From: Catellatospora coxensis
GTDB lineage: Bacteria > Actinomycetota > Actinomycetes > Mycobacteriales > Micromonosporaceae
DNA: 64,000 bases
Assembly (NCBI RefSeq): GCF_016862635.1
Contig: NZ_BONI01000017.1
Coordinates: 62,001-126,000 of the forward strand
Direction: 5' to 3'
The stretch's first letter is position 1. Every line of letters begins with the position of its first letter. The notes under the pieces were generated by a model that had not been told where the DNA came from, searched no databases, and worked only from the letters and a program-made list of their open reading frames with translations. This document shows, one piece after another, positions 3,491 through 10,962 of the stretch. A program made the translations under genes and the position numbers.

Positions 3491-3565
3491 ATGAGCGAAC
3501 GCAGTGAGCTCATCATGCGGCTCGAGGAACATGACGGAGCCGAGCGCAGCGAGGTGACGGCATGA
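3491..3565 (+). other. Mini-ORF / repeat element copy 1 (MSERSE family), 24 codons
   Basis: Two bases after the stop of the flavoprotein gene an ATG opens a 24-codon frame beginning MSERSELIMRL and containing AERSE. Its TGA overlaps the nirB start as ATGA. The last codons carry a GAGG seven bases before the nirB ATG, so they also supply its ribosome binding site. Copies at 6404-6478 and 10891-10962 share the layout. It may be a translated leader peptide or a dispersed repeat that happens to stay open in frame. Confidence 0.6.
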
Positions 3566-6060
3566 GCGAAAAGAAGAGGCTGGTCGTCGCCGGGTACGGC
3601 ATGGTGGCGCAGCGGTTCCTGGAGGCGTTCGCGGAGCGGGAGGCGCCCGGCTGGTCGGTGACCGTGCTGGCCGAGGAGGACCGTCCGGCGTACGACCGGG
3701 TGCGCCTGTCGGCCTGGTTCGACGACTACGACGCCGGGGCGCTGCACATGGGCGGCGCGCCCGACGGGGTCACGGTGCGGCTGAAGGAGGCCGTCACCGG
3801 GATCGACCGGGAGCGCAAGGTCGTGCACAGCCCGTCCGGCGAGACGCCGTACGACGCGCTGGTGCTGGCCACCGGCTCGCGGGCGTTCGTCCCCCCGATC
3901 GCGGGCAGCGACCTGCCCGGTGTGTTCGTCTACCGCACCCTGGACGACCTGGCCGCGCTGAAGGACTGGGCGACCGCGGACGGCCGCAAGGTCGGTGCGG
4001 TGCTCGGCGGTGGCCTGCTCGGCCTGGAGGCCGCGAACGCGCTGAAGCTGCTCGGCATCACCACGCACGTCGTCGAGTTCGCGCCGCGGCTGATGCCGCT
4101 GCAGGTGGACGAGGGCGGCGGCGCGGTGCTCAAGCGGCACATCGAGGCGCTGGACGTCACCGTGCACACCGGGCGCGGCTGCGCGGGCCTGGAGGGCGAC
4201 GCGGACGGCGTACGCCGGATGCTGTTCAACGACGGCGGCTCGCTCGACGTCGACGTGGTCGTCGTCGCGGCGGGCATCCGGCCGCGCGACGAGCTGGCCG
4301 AGCCGTCCGGCCTGGCCCGCGGCCCGCGCGGCGGCTTCACGGTCGACGCGGCCTGCGCGACGGCCGATCCGGCGGTGTGGGCGATCGGCGAGTGCGCGGC
4401 CCTGTCCCTCGACGAGGCCGGCGGGGTCTGCTACGGCCTGGTCGCGCCCGGGTACGCGATGGCCGAGGTGGTCGCCGACCGGCTGACCGGCGGCGAGGCG
4501 ACGATGGCCCGCCCCGACACCTCCACCAAGCTCAAGCTGCTCGGCGTGGACGTGGCCAGCTTCGGCGCCCCGTTCGCCGACGGTCTCGACGTGGTCGTCA
4601 CCGACCAGGTCACCGGCGTGTACGCGAAGCTGCTGCTCACCGACGACGCGAAGACCCTGCTCGGCGGCATCCTGGTCGGCGACGCCAGCGCGTACCCGAC
4701 GCTGCGGGCCTCGCTCGGCGGGCCGCTGCCCGCACCGCCGCTGGCGCTGCTCGCCCCGGCCGGTGACGGTTCCGTGAAGGCGGAGCTGCCCGGCACCGCA
4801 CAGGTGTGCTCCTGCCACGCGGTGACCAAGGACCACGTCACGGACGCCATCGCCGGCGGCTGCACCGACGTGCCGGGCCTGAAGGCGTGCACCAAGGCGG
4901 GCACCGGCTGCGGCTCCTGCATCCCGCTGCTCAAGCAGCTGCTGGCCGCGGGCGGGGTGGTCCAGTCCAAGGCGCTGTGCGAGCACTTCACGTACTCACG
5001 CCAGGAGCTGTTCGACATCATCCGGGTGCGCGGCATCCGCTCGTTCAGCGAGCTGGTCACCGCGCACGGCACCGGCCGGGGCTGCGACATCTGCAAACCG
5101 GCGATCGCGTCGATCCTGGCCGTGACCAACAGCGGGTACATCCTCGACGGCGAGGAAGCCGCGCTGCAGGACACCAACGACCACTTCCTCGCCAACATCC
5201 AGCGCGACGGCACGTACTCGGTGGTGCCGCGCATCCCCGGCGGTGAGATCACCCCGGAGAAGCTGATCGTGATCGGCGAGGTGGCCCGCGACTTCGGGCT
5301 CTACACGAAGATCACGGGTGGCCAGCGCATCGACCTGTTCGGCGCGCGGGTGGAGCAGCTGCCGCAGATCTGGCACCGGCTGGTGGACGCGGGCTTCGAG
5401 TCCGGGCACGCGTACGGCAAGGCGCTGCGCACGGTGAAGAGCTGCGTCGGCGAAACCTGGTGCCGGTACGGCGTGCAGGACTCGGTCGGCCTGGCCATCG
5501 AGCTGGAGCTGCGCTACCGGGGCCTGCGCGCCCCGCACAAGCTCAAGTCGGCGGTGAGCGGCTGCGCCCGCGAGTGCGCCGAGGCCCGCAGCAAGGACTT
5601 CGGCATCATCGCCACGGAGAAGGGCTGGAACCTCTACGTCGCCGGCAACGGCGGCTTCCGGCCCCGGCACGCGGACCTGTTCCTCACCGACGTCAGCACC
5701 GAGGAGCTGATCCGCACCATCGACCGGTTCCTCATGTACTACATCCGCACCGCCGACCGGCTGCAGCGCACCGCCGCCTGGCTGGAGGCGATGGAGGGCG
5801 GTCTCGACCACCTGCGTGCCGTCATCGTCGACGACGCGCTGGGACTGTGCGAGGAGCTCGACGCGCAGATGGCCCGCCACGTCGGGTCGTACGCCGACGA
5901 GTGGCAGGCCACGCTGCAGGACCCGCAGCGCCTCGCACGTTTCGTCTCGTTCGTCAACGCGCCGGGCACGCCCGACCCCGACATCAGCTTCGAGGTCGAG
6001 CGCGGGCAGAAGATCCCTGCCCGGGGTCCGGTGCCGGTAACCCTGGGAGGTGCCCGATGA
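3562..6060 (+). CDS. nirB: Nitrite reductase [NAD(P)H] large subunit
   Basis: An 832-residue NirB that reduces nitrite to ammonium in the cytoplasm with NAD(P)H. Domains in order: FAD/NAD(P) oxidoreductase (VVAGYGMVAQRFLEAF at the N-terminus; GAVLGGGLLGLEAANAL near 150); BFD [2Fe-2S] domain with C416, C418, C450 and C453; a second cysteine-containing BFD-like stretch ending GRGCDICKPAIAS; then the siroheme/[4Fe-4S] sulfite-nitrite reductase domain with C628, C634, C668 and C672. Length is normal for NirB. The start is fixed by MSEKKRLVVAGYG and by the ATGA overlap with the preceding mini-ORF. nirD follows with another ATGA overlap, giving a fully coupled nitrate-to-ammonium operon. Confidence 0.96.
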   Translation: MSEKKRLVVAGYGMVAQRFLEAFAEREAPGWSVTVLAEEDRPAYDRVRLSAWFDDYDAGALHMGGAPDGVTVRLKEAVTGIDRERKVVHSPSGETPYDALVLATGSRAFVPPIAGSDLPGVFVYRTLDDLAALKDWATADGRKVGAVLGGGLLGLEAANALKLLGITTHVVEFAPRLMPLQVDEGGGAVLKRHIEALDVTVHTGRGCAGLEGDADGVRRMLFNDGGSLDVDVVVVAAGIRPRDELAEPSGLARGPRGGFTVDAACATADPAVWAIGECAALSLDEAGGVCYGLVAPGYAMAEVVADRLTGGEATMARPDTSTKLKLLGVDVASFGAPFADGLDVVVTDQVTGVYAKLLLTDDAKTLLGGILVGDASAYPTLRASLGGPLPAPPLALLAPAGDGSVKAELPGTAQVCSCHAVTKDHVTDAIAGGCTDVPGLKACTKAGTGCGSCIPLLKQLLAAGGVVQSKALCEHFTYSRQELFDIIRVRGIRSFSELVTAHGTGRGCDICKPAIASILAVTNSGYILDGEEAALQDTNDHFLANIQRDGTYSVVPRIPGGEITPEKLIVIGEVARDFGLYTKITGGQRIDLFGARVEQLPQIWHRLVDAGFESGHAYGKALRTVKSCVGETWCRYGVQDSVGLAIELELRYRGLRAPHKLKSAVSGCARECAEARSKDFGIIATEKGWNLYVAGNGGFRPRHADLFLTDVSTEELIRTIDRFLMYYIRTADRLQRTAAWLEAMEGGLDHLRAVIVDDALGLCEELDAQMARHVGSYADEWQATLQDPQRLARFVSFVNAPGTPDPDISFEVERGQKIPARGPVPVTLGGAR

Positions 6061-6407
6061 CCACGGCGACCCTGACCATCACCTGGACGGCGATCTGCTC
6101 GTACAGCCGGCTGGAGGCAGAACGCGGCGTGGCCGCGCTCGTCGACGGCGTGCAGATCGCGATCTTCCGGACCTACTCCGGCGAGCTGTTCGCCATCGGC
6201 AACCGCGACCCGATCGCGGGCGCGCAGGTGATGTCCCGCGGCATCGTCGGCACCCGCGGGGACACCCCGACCGTCGCGTCCCCGCTGCACAAGCAGGTCT
6301 ACGACCTGCGTACCGGCGAGTGCCTGGACGTGGCCGGGGTGGCCGTGCCGACGTACCCCATCCGCCGCAACGGCGACGCGGTCGAAGTGGCTGTGGATAA
6401 ACCATGA
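6057..6407 (+). CDS. nirD: Nitrite reductase [NAD(P)H] small subunit
   Basis: A 116-residue Rieske-fold NirD starting MTTATLTITWTAICSYSRLE. It carries the family features GELFAIGNRDPIAGAQVMSRG and SPLHKQVYDLRTGECLD. The CxH pairs of true Rieske proteins are absent, as is normal for NirD, so it should bind no iron-sulfur cluster and act as the structural partner of NirB. The ATG overlaps the nirB stop. Its own TGA overlaps the ATG of a second MSERSE mini-ORF at 6404. An alternative frame over the same bases is open but Arg/Pro-rich and is not coding. Confidence 0.95.
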   Translation: MTTATLTITWTAICSYSRLEAERGVAALVDGVQIAIFRTYSGELFAIGNRDPIAGAQVMSRGIVGTRGDTPTVASPLHKQVYDLRTGECLDVAGVAVPTYPIRRNGDAVEVAVDKP

Positions 6408-10085: not shown

Positions 10086-10099
10086 GCTGCCTCCTTGTG

Positions 10100-10894
10100 C
10101 TACAGGCGTGGGAAATGGTTCAGCGGACCGGCTCCGCTGCCGAGCCGCCAGTCCTGCGCCGCCAGCAGCGCCGAGCGGACGTAGCGGTTCGCGTAGGCGA
10201 TCGAGTCGTCGACCGGGTAGCCGTGCGCCAGCCGGGCCGCGATCGCCGCCGAGAAGGTGCAGCCCGTGCCGTGGTCGTTCGGCGTCTCCACGCGGGGCGA
10301 GCGCAGGAAACGCGCCCCGTTGGCGGTCCACACCGCGTCCACGACCTCCGCGCCGCCCAGGTCGCCGCCGGTGACCACGACGCACGTCGGGCCGTGCGAG
10401 GCCAGCTGCGCCGCCGCGCCGGCCATGTCCGCGGGGGTGCTGACCGGCCAGCCGAGCAGGGCCGACGCCTCGTCGATGTTGGGGGTCACCACCGTCGCGT
10501 ACGGCAGCAGCCGCTCGATCGCGCTGACGACGCCGAGCCGCCGCCCCGTCGACGCGGTCAGCACCGGGTCCAGCACCAGCTTCGGCAGCTCGCCGTTGCG
10601 CGCGCGGGCCCGGATGGTCGCCGCGATCTCCCCGCTGGCCACCATGCCGACCTTCACCGCGGCCACCGGCATGTCGTCGAGGACCGCGCCGAGCTGCGCG
10701 GCGACCACGGTGGCCGGCATCGGGTGCACGTCCGTGATGACTTTGGTGTTCTGCGAGGTCACCGCCGTGATGACGCTCGCGCCGTAGCAGTCCAGCGCGG
10801 CGAAGGTCTTCAGGTCCGCCTGGATGCCCGCACCGCCGCTGCTGTCCGAGCCGGCGATGGTGAGAGCCAGAAAGGGGGTGGTGTGTCCGCTCAT
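10100..10894 (-). CDS. thiD: Hydroxymethylpyrimidine/phosphomethylpyrimidine kinase
   Basis: A 264-residue ribokinase-fold kinase that phosphorylates HMP and HMP-P to HMP-PP. Seen: [21 protein letters not shown] at the N-terminus (the HMP-binding region), [23 protein letters not shown], and near the C-terminus [20 protein letters not shown], the anion hole and catalytic Asp. The start is fixed by ATGA overlap with the mini-ORF at 10891-10962, whose final codons contain the GAGGAGG ribosome binding site. Confidence 0.96.
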
Positions 10895-10962
10895 GCCGCC
10901 TCCTCACCACGCTCGGCCGCGGCATCGCCGAGGCTGCTGATTCGCTCACTGCGTTCGCTCAT
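10891..10962 (-). other. Mini-ORF / repeat element copy 3 (MSERSE), 23 codons, between tenI-like gene and thiD
   Basis: The ATG overlaps the stop of the upstream thiE-family gene and the TGA overlaps the thiD ATG, four bases each. It encodes 23 residues beginning [11 protein letters not shown] and containing AERGEEAA. The first 18 bases are identical to copy 1 (3491-3508), although the two lie 7 kb apart in unrelated operons on opposite strands. The last codons form the thiD Shine-Dalgarno. Confidence 0.62.

Follow-up and report, generated by a model that had tools for sequence, protein, structure and literature searches.

The window analysed here is the whole 64,000-nt stretch of Catellatospora coxensis DNA on contig NZ_BONI01000017.1 (positions 62,001–126,000, forward strand). 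It contains three short open reading frames (mini-ORFs), each of which bridges two operon genes. They are copies of one dispersed element, mostly of 69–84 nt (60 to 108), which is open in frame to a terminal NTGA. According to the comparison of filled and empty sites, the element is probably (about 0.8) a non-autonomous mobile repeat resembling the mycobacterial interspersed repetitive units (MIRUs), which inserts at NTGA start junctions, often stop/start junctions, with a 4-nt NTGA duplication. The original prediction, made from the letters of the window, had proposed either a mobile translational-coupling cassette or a conserved leader peptide family. Empty sites, the duplicated NTGA, closed frames and a terminal Shine-Dalgarno sequence all speak for the cassette.

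Filled and empty junctions and copies in the genome

Twelve sites of the genome (denoted G000) were compared in ten same-genus genomes. Of the 120 combinations, 99 were scored, and 21 had no fetched sequence, scorable flank or start. The two genes are joined directly or nearly directly in 46 observations (35 with an exact −4 overlap, 11 with a gap of −1, 2 or 4). An in-frame mini-ORF chain lies between them in 50 observations; both its ends overlap at −4 in 47 of these, and in 3 the chain starts 0–2 nt past the stop. Between filled and empty junctions, NTGA corresponds to NTGA-element-NTGA, and the flanking genes are intact at the junctions read. At the nirB site (copy 1), the element is present in G004, G007 and G010, the genes are near-direct (gap −4 to +2) in G002, G003 and G006, and the other four relatives were unscored. 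The flanks of G007 (filled) and G002 (empty) look nearly alike. At the thiE–thiD site (copy 3), a bare ATGA overlap is found in G002, G005, G007, G008 and G009, one mini-ORF in G001, G003 and G006, and two in G004 and G010. At the hemD site (copy 2), all ten relatives have an in-frame mini-ORF, and in seven of them the repeat is not recognisable by eye. The left and right tetranucleotides are ATGA/ATGA in 68 copies, GTGA/GTGA in 5, GTGA/ATGA in 4 and ATGA/GTGA in 3 (Fisher p = 2.6e-4; copies with other left or right ends are left out of the count). The ten relatives have 4 to 116 copies each (E ≤ 1e-6) among the best 118 candidates a genome, at which the counts saturate.

A sequence-only model built from 18 copies (R1) gave 152 matches at E ≤ 10 in the Catellatospora genome. 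The 109 copies at E ≤ 1e-3 were used; as scoring was limited to 150 candidates, the genome has at least this many. Among them, 95 lie between two genes running in the direction of the element. The downstream gene is co-directional in 104 of the 105 copies for which one is called; 4 of the 109 have none, at contig ends, and 1 of the 109 faces a convergent gene. The reading frame is open to the terminal stop in 94 of the 106 copies uncut by contig ends. In these 94 copies, the start codon is the first triplet in 78 and lies within the first six codons in 88, and the length is 60, 69, 72, 75, 78, 81, 84 or 108 nt (72 or 75 in 77 copies). NTGA is present at the end of 99 of the 103 copies with enough downstream sequence.

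Merging gave 90 arrays (78 single, 11 double and 1 triple), in which three tandem pairs split between loci are counted as separate arrays. The array end is the NTGA which opens the downstream coding frame in 82 of 90. The array start is at −4 on the upstream stop in 39, and both ends are so placed in 35. Eight further arrays at −13 would be at −4 if the start were taken 9 nt later. The original prediction had noted frame closure in the three window copies, with overlap at both ends in two of them; tested genome-wide, this was borne out by the open frames, the co-directional downstream genes and the single convergent case. The 18-base word which it had reported as common to copies 1 and 3 was also found: the window has 3 occurrences with up to 3 mismatches, where shuffling predicts 0.02, and the genome has 23 with up to 2 mismatches, where the reversed word has 0.

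Some copies seem to be altered. A 9-codon form, MSERSEEKA, is found at L008 1518 (−) and L022 1518 (−) (contigs C30 and C86 of G000). It still ends on ATGA, and it would fit a deletion between two direct GAGCGCAGCGAG words. At L056 5079–5150 (G000 C79:7378–7449), the upstream protein ends with ERTEEKA and the downstream one begins with MSEHRERISGR, neither of which is found in G003; halves of the element seem to be fused to the gene ends. Contigs C7, C83, C90, C102, C126, C129 and C163 of G000 start or end in an element match or at most about 15 bases from one. The assembly seems to break there, and the copy number is therefore probably underestimated.

Hairpin, reading frame and peptide

A Shine-Dalgarno core is located at −14 to −4 of the terminal start in 93 of 99 copies, and one precedes the element's own start in 47 of 99. 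The 3' part of the element is predicted to form a hairpin. The last 47 nt were aligned ungapped from the 3' end, and pairs with i + j = 54 were compared with shuffled sequences, in which relatedness is left in place, and with slid registers. In 97 unique copies of this genome 60% of the cells are paired, and in 83 copies of other genera 57%; the slid maxima are 39% and 43%, respectively. Cells changed on both sides number 97 in this genome (shuffle maximum 62, slid maximum 58) and 154 in the other genera (shuffle maximum 101, slid maximum 130). The downstream start codon is part of the stem. Positions 12 and 42 are T and A in 73 copies, C and G in 8 copies (GTG starts), and C and A in 7. For sets of 99 and 94 copies, the mean folding z-scores are −1.52 and −2.05, and two or more start-codon bases are paired in 79 and 80 copies, respectively. 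The stem is also present in the 18-sequence alignment A1. The three window copies are predicted to have the same fold, with −14.0, −29.0 and −18.2 kcal/mol for copies 1, 2 and 3. The 5' part has the pattern GC-GA-GC[NNN]GC-GA-GC, in which the pair 9–15 covaries in 3 copies; the pattern is not stable according to RNA energy.

The amino-acid sequence behaves differently from the frame. Where the NTGA start is intact (84 copies), bases 11–13 show 24 different triplets, while the flanking GA/GA is kept in 78. As a consequence of this variation residue 4 is R (52 copies), L (18), H (6), P (3), Q (2), S (2) or F (1), and residues 4–5 vary freely. The 3' word AGCGNAGCG was read in 94 copies of named genomes, which were picked as closing. 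It is in frame 1 (ERSE) in 49, in frame 2 (AKRGR or AKRVR, at Nocardioides, Kribbella and Phytohabitans loci) in 10 and in frame 0 in 3, and 32 copies lack the exact word. In the MSERQRANH copies (C6:170198, L302 and L314), the same word is shifted by one base, the shift is compensated later and the frame closes. At the hemD and C79:6236 sites, the relatives have the unrelated peptides MNSDRAAGRGAVS, MTTPGETRS, VSTSHTGATTGDEDGS and MSQPNPIGTGPEETA, all of which close in frame. No amino-acid conservation beyond that of the DNA and the frame was found. Frame closure, the terminal Shine-Dalgarno sequence and the covarying start-codon hairpin are conserved, and the peptide is not. The idea of a conserved leader peptide family falls on the variation of residues 4–5, the unrelated spacers which serve equally and the different frames between genera.

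From these features a path of the ribosome may be proposed by analogy with termination–reinitiation at overlapping stop and start codons, which is established according to an excerpt of a review (PMC12548453). As the element starts exactly at the junction, the old Shine-Dalgarno sequence and coupling of the junction would now serve the mini-ORF, and the element's own end would give the displaced gene a new Shine-Dalgarno sequence and NTGA. A ribosome from the upstream gene, or one loaded by the old Shine-Dalgarno sequence, would terminate at the TGA and restart on the overlapping ATG. It would then read the mini-ORF, open the hairpin, stop at the terminal TGA and restart on the ATG of the downstream gene. 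The hairpin would hold the downstream start closed until it is opened by the ribosome translating the mini-ORF. Coupling would thus survive the insertion. After insertion, the sequence would drift while selection keeps the frame closed.

If so, the mechanism described for mycobacterial repeats extends to other actinobacteria, with more than 100 copies in one genome. The family offers clean before-and-after junctions, at which frame closure and the start-codon hairpin persist rather than the peptide. The share of natural translation that proceeds by termination–reinitiation at NTGA, and an enzyme targeting NTGA sites, become testable. Some annotated N-termini and small ORFs of actinobacteria that begin with MSERSE would be accounted for by the element, and its copies are natural parts on offer for coupled expression.

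Copies in the window and distribution

The coordinates of the window copies are shown in Table 1. As the original prediction had described, the three mini-ORFs have 24, 24 and 23 codons with Leu at position 11 and an AER block, and each ends on the ATGA which opens the next gene. Copies 2 and 3 start on the stop ATGA of the previous gene, and copy 1 begins 2 nt past the stop. The prediction had placed a Shine-Dalgarno sequence in copies 1 and 3, which by implication left copy 2 without one, and the sequence agrees. Copy 2 is the most diverged of the three and has the strongest hairpin. According to Pfam, copy 1 lies between a Pyr_redox/BFD reductase gene (stop ends at 3488) and nirB (start 3562, −4 overlap), and its terminal ATGA is both the stop of the mini-ORF and the start of nirB. 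Copy 2 lies between nirD (Rieske_2; stop 6405–6407, −4) and a gene with HEM4 and Trans_reg_C domains (start 6475, −4). Copy 3 lies between thiE (TMP-TENI; stop in 10959–10962) and thiD (start 10894, −4).

Table 1. Copies of the element in the window and their parts
Feature	Position	Strand	Evidence
Copy 1, 24-codon mini-ORF MSERSELIMRLEEHDGAERSEVTA	3491..3565	+	Sequence; R1 E 8.8e-19
Copy 2, 24-codon mini-ORF MTERSEVNSRLSRHDAAERSSAVS	6404..6478	+	Sequence; R1 E 1e-14
Copy 3, 23-codon mini-ORF	10891..10962	−	Sequence; R1 E 2.9e-18
3' end of copy 1 GAGGTGACGGCATGA, Shine-Dalgarno core GAGG and terminal ATGA	3551..3565	+	Sequence
Hairpin including downstream start codon, 3' half of copy 3 and two bases	10889..10935	−	Single-sequence fold; family covariation

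Other features were observed in the window. A thiamine pyrophosphate (TPP) riboswitch (RF00059, 65.4 bits; gathering score 54.3) is located at 13724–13836 (−), upstream of the thi genes which hold copy 3 and on the same strand. A scan of the gaps between genes gave a bridging mini-ORF near 28886 (−), possibly a worn-down copy, which neither R1 nor a second model (R2) matched at E ≤ 10; the other mini-ORF of the scan, at 60802 (−), looks like chance. A second dispersed repeat at 8462–8561 is a long inverted repeat with arms 8468–8501 and 8511–8544. Matches of about 75 nt to this repeat are present in at least 7 of the 11 same-genus genomes (G000, G002, G003, G004, G006, G007 and G010), and its Rfam matches are far under the gathering score.

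In named genomes, the exact 25-mer at the start of the element was found in 116 stretches or more. The hosts include Micromonosporaceae, Streptomycetaceae, Nocardia, Nocardioidaceae, Microbispora and some metagenome-assembled genomes of Acidimicrobiia. Of the 124 matches in these stretches, 111 are mini-ORFs no longer than 45 codons with NTGA at the end; 1 has TAG at its end, 9 are either long or fused, and 3 run off. An ORF of at least 60 codons follows 96 of the 111 mini-ORFs. At the Nocardia loci L135, L140, L148 and L153, proteins of about 350 residues begin with MSERSERI, apparently with the 5' half of the element as the N-terminus. In an even sample of the phylum, the 25-mer with up to 2 mismatches is found in 3 of 296 genomes, and presence in the phylum is therefore patchy. 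R2 was used for family scans with the best 30 candidates a genome, at which the counts saturate. In Micromonosporaceae it matched 96 of 150 genomes, in 29 of 44 genera, and 18 of its best 20 loci were parsed as mini-ORFs of 26–27 codons ending in NTGA, the other 2 being unparsed. In the family f8 (family of G031), it matched 12 of 151 genomes (4 of 31 genera). Thus the hosts are chiefly Micromonosporaceae among those sampled. One query each against plasmids and phages gave no match, and the search of Rfam over the three copies (window 1–16000) gave none at E ≤ 1.

The Y1 transposase domain (PF01797) was matched in 6 of the 11 same-genus genomes, which have 17–116 copies of the element; the five genomes without a match have 4, 5, 6, 13 and 62 copies (exact Mann–Whitney p = 0.017, n = 11, relatedness uncorrected). 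An IS200-type Y1 enzyme acting in trans is a possible mobiliser. Several results speak against it: G006 has 62 copies and no PF01797 match, the matches of G000 and G003 carry a stop, those of G010 are partial, and no element-like sequence (E < 0.05) was found around four Y1 genes.

Alternatives and known systems

Several observations weigh against a mobile, frame-closing element with a start-codon hairpin. Mobility would rest on presence and absence, which by themselves do not give the direction, and precise loss is an alternative; the orthologous observations also share history. In 3 of the 99 observations the spacer has no bridging chain, 12 of the 106 copies are not open (including the first units of two tandem arrays), and the gene calls come from a home-made codon-usage gene finder. 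No stable RNA structure is seen in the 5' part, where the mean z is +0.57 and +0.71. In the cross-genus comparison, the best slid register comes near the true one in cells changed on both sides (130 against 154), yet 43% against 57% of its cells are paired. RNAalifold gave no 3' stem on a 62-sequence cross-genus MAFFT alignment, probably due to arms misplaced by gaps; the 3' hairpin there thus depends on the ungapped, 3'-anchored register.

Three other explanations were considered. The spacers might be immobile products of local duplication, slippage or gene conversion, shaped into look-alikes by selection for coupling. The unrelated in-frame spacers of different species at the hemD, C79:6236 and C17:44407 sites and the tandem arrays (11 double and 1 triple of 90) are in line with this. 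Local origin, however, cannot account for near-identical sequences in unrelated operons of one genome, nor for the exact 25-mer in many genera, and we regard it as very improbable. An ordinary repeat of the repetitive extragenic palindrome (REP) or miniature inverted-repeat transposable element (MITE) type, whose frame is incidental and which survives at junctions because insertions elsewhere are purged, would also be dispersed and hairpin-forming, with a copy number differing between species. But purging leaves unexplained the same-strand orientation, the open frames, the terminal NTGA placed on the start codon and the fact that unrelated spacers at the same sites also close in frame. When spacers were shuffled and their length was changed by −1, 0 or +1, one bridging ORF was found in 21%, against 38 of the 49 distinct observed spacers. 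With the length held, 57% bridge, and much of the bridging signal therefore lies in length. This explanation is very improbable.

The least probable is a leader peptide or small-protein family with its own function. The MSERSE start and DERSEE end recur, and pN/pS is 0.32, from nine non-independent orthologous pairs at two sites, too few to use. Codon 4, however, varies exactly where a hairpin loop would lie. Most loci with the 3' word read it as ERSE and others as AKRGR or AKRVR, MSERQRANH comes from the same DNA with a one-base shift after which the frame still closes, and unrelated peptides occupy the same sites. A mobile repeat inserting at NTGA junctions is thus preferred, and it may be compared with known systems.

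Rickettsia palindromic elements lie inside genes, in frame. They are likewise repeats compatible with coding sequence, whereas the Catellatospora elements are separate ORFs between genes. The REP/RAYT and IS200/IS605 single-stranded DNA elements have hairpins and a target tetranucleotide. The Catellatospora element seems to share both, and the presence of Y1 goes with its copy number; this class is not known to carry a frame-closing ORF. The bicistronic design uses a synthetic leader cistron with an embedded Shine-Dalgarno sequence and overlapping stop and start codons. The Catellatospora element similarly has a short leader ORF which holds the Shine-Dalgarno sequence of the second cistron and a stop/start overlap (papers on the design: PMC5995908 and PMC11602170). 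Unlike the design, it is natural, dispersed and apparently mobile, and it lies between operon genes.

The closest likeness is to the MIRUs, reportedly described by Supply and colleagues in 1997. MIRUs have been described as lacking dyad symmetry, and they lie in the orientation of the flanking genes. The Catellatospora element is also co-directional with the downstream gene (104 of 105), and it has a covarying start-codon hairpin, in contrast to that description. An excerpt of PMC12548453 describes MIRUs as apparently mobile and inserting at start codons, where the ORF within them is coupled at −4 and the gene is affected very little. The element is likewise a short ORF-bearing repeat with a −4 overlap at stop and start codons (82 of 90 arrays downstream, 39 of 90 upstream), and its insertion at start-codon NTGA is seen against empty sites (46 of 99 direct or near-direct). 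The original prediction knew of no functional description. This holds for the family itself, of which no description was recognised in the openly licensed PMC literature (CC0, CC BY and CC BY-SA), but MIRUs are described in the same terms in the excerpt of PMC12548453. According to an excerpt of PMC2734929, MIRUs are 40–100 bp long and occupy 41 locations in M. tuberculosis H37Rv, and the rnc-fpg1 junction is 358 bp in M. tuberculosis and 1–54 bp in the listed species outside its complex. Tens of locations, copy-number variation and short junctions in relatives are common to both. A transcriptional role is put forward in an excerpt of PMC4213456, according to which expression of regX3 can be driven by the MIRUs of senX3-regX3. 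The hosts differ: among those sampled, the Catellatospora element is mainly found in Micromonosporaceae. Genus g22 (taken as Mycobacterium), for which the number of genomes drawn is unlisted, is not represented among the 12 matching f8 genomes; PPE matches in four g22 genomes were 6, 4, 49 and 79. The element is likened to MIRUs by their descriptions and not by a MIRU unit sequence, and it is MIRU-like rather than a demonstrated MIRU. The chances seem evenly balanced that the family is distinct in origin from MIRUs: translationally transparent, widespread in Micromonosporaceae and patchy elsewhere in Actinomycetota, with its own start-codon-sequestering hairpin and Shine-Dalgarno sequence, and invading stop/start overlaps by means of NTGA-specific machinery, where it would leave drifting, frame-locked coupling mini-ORFs as permanent parts of operons and gene ends.

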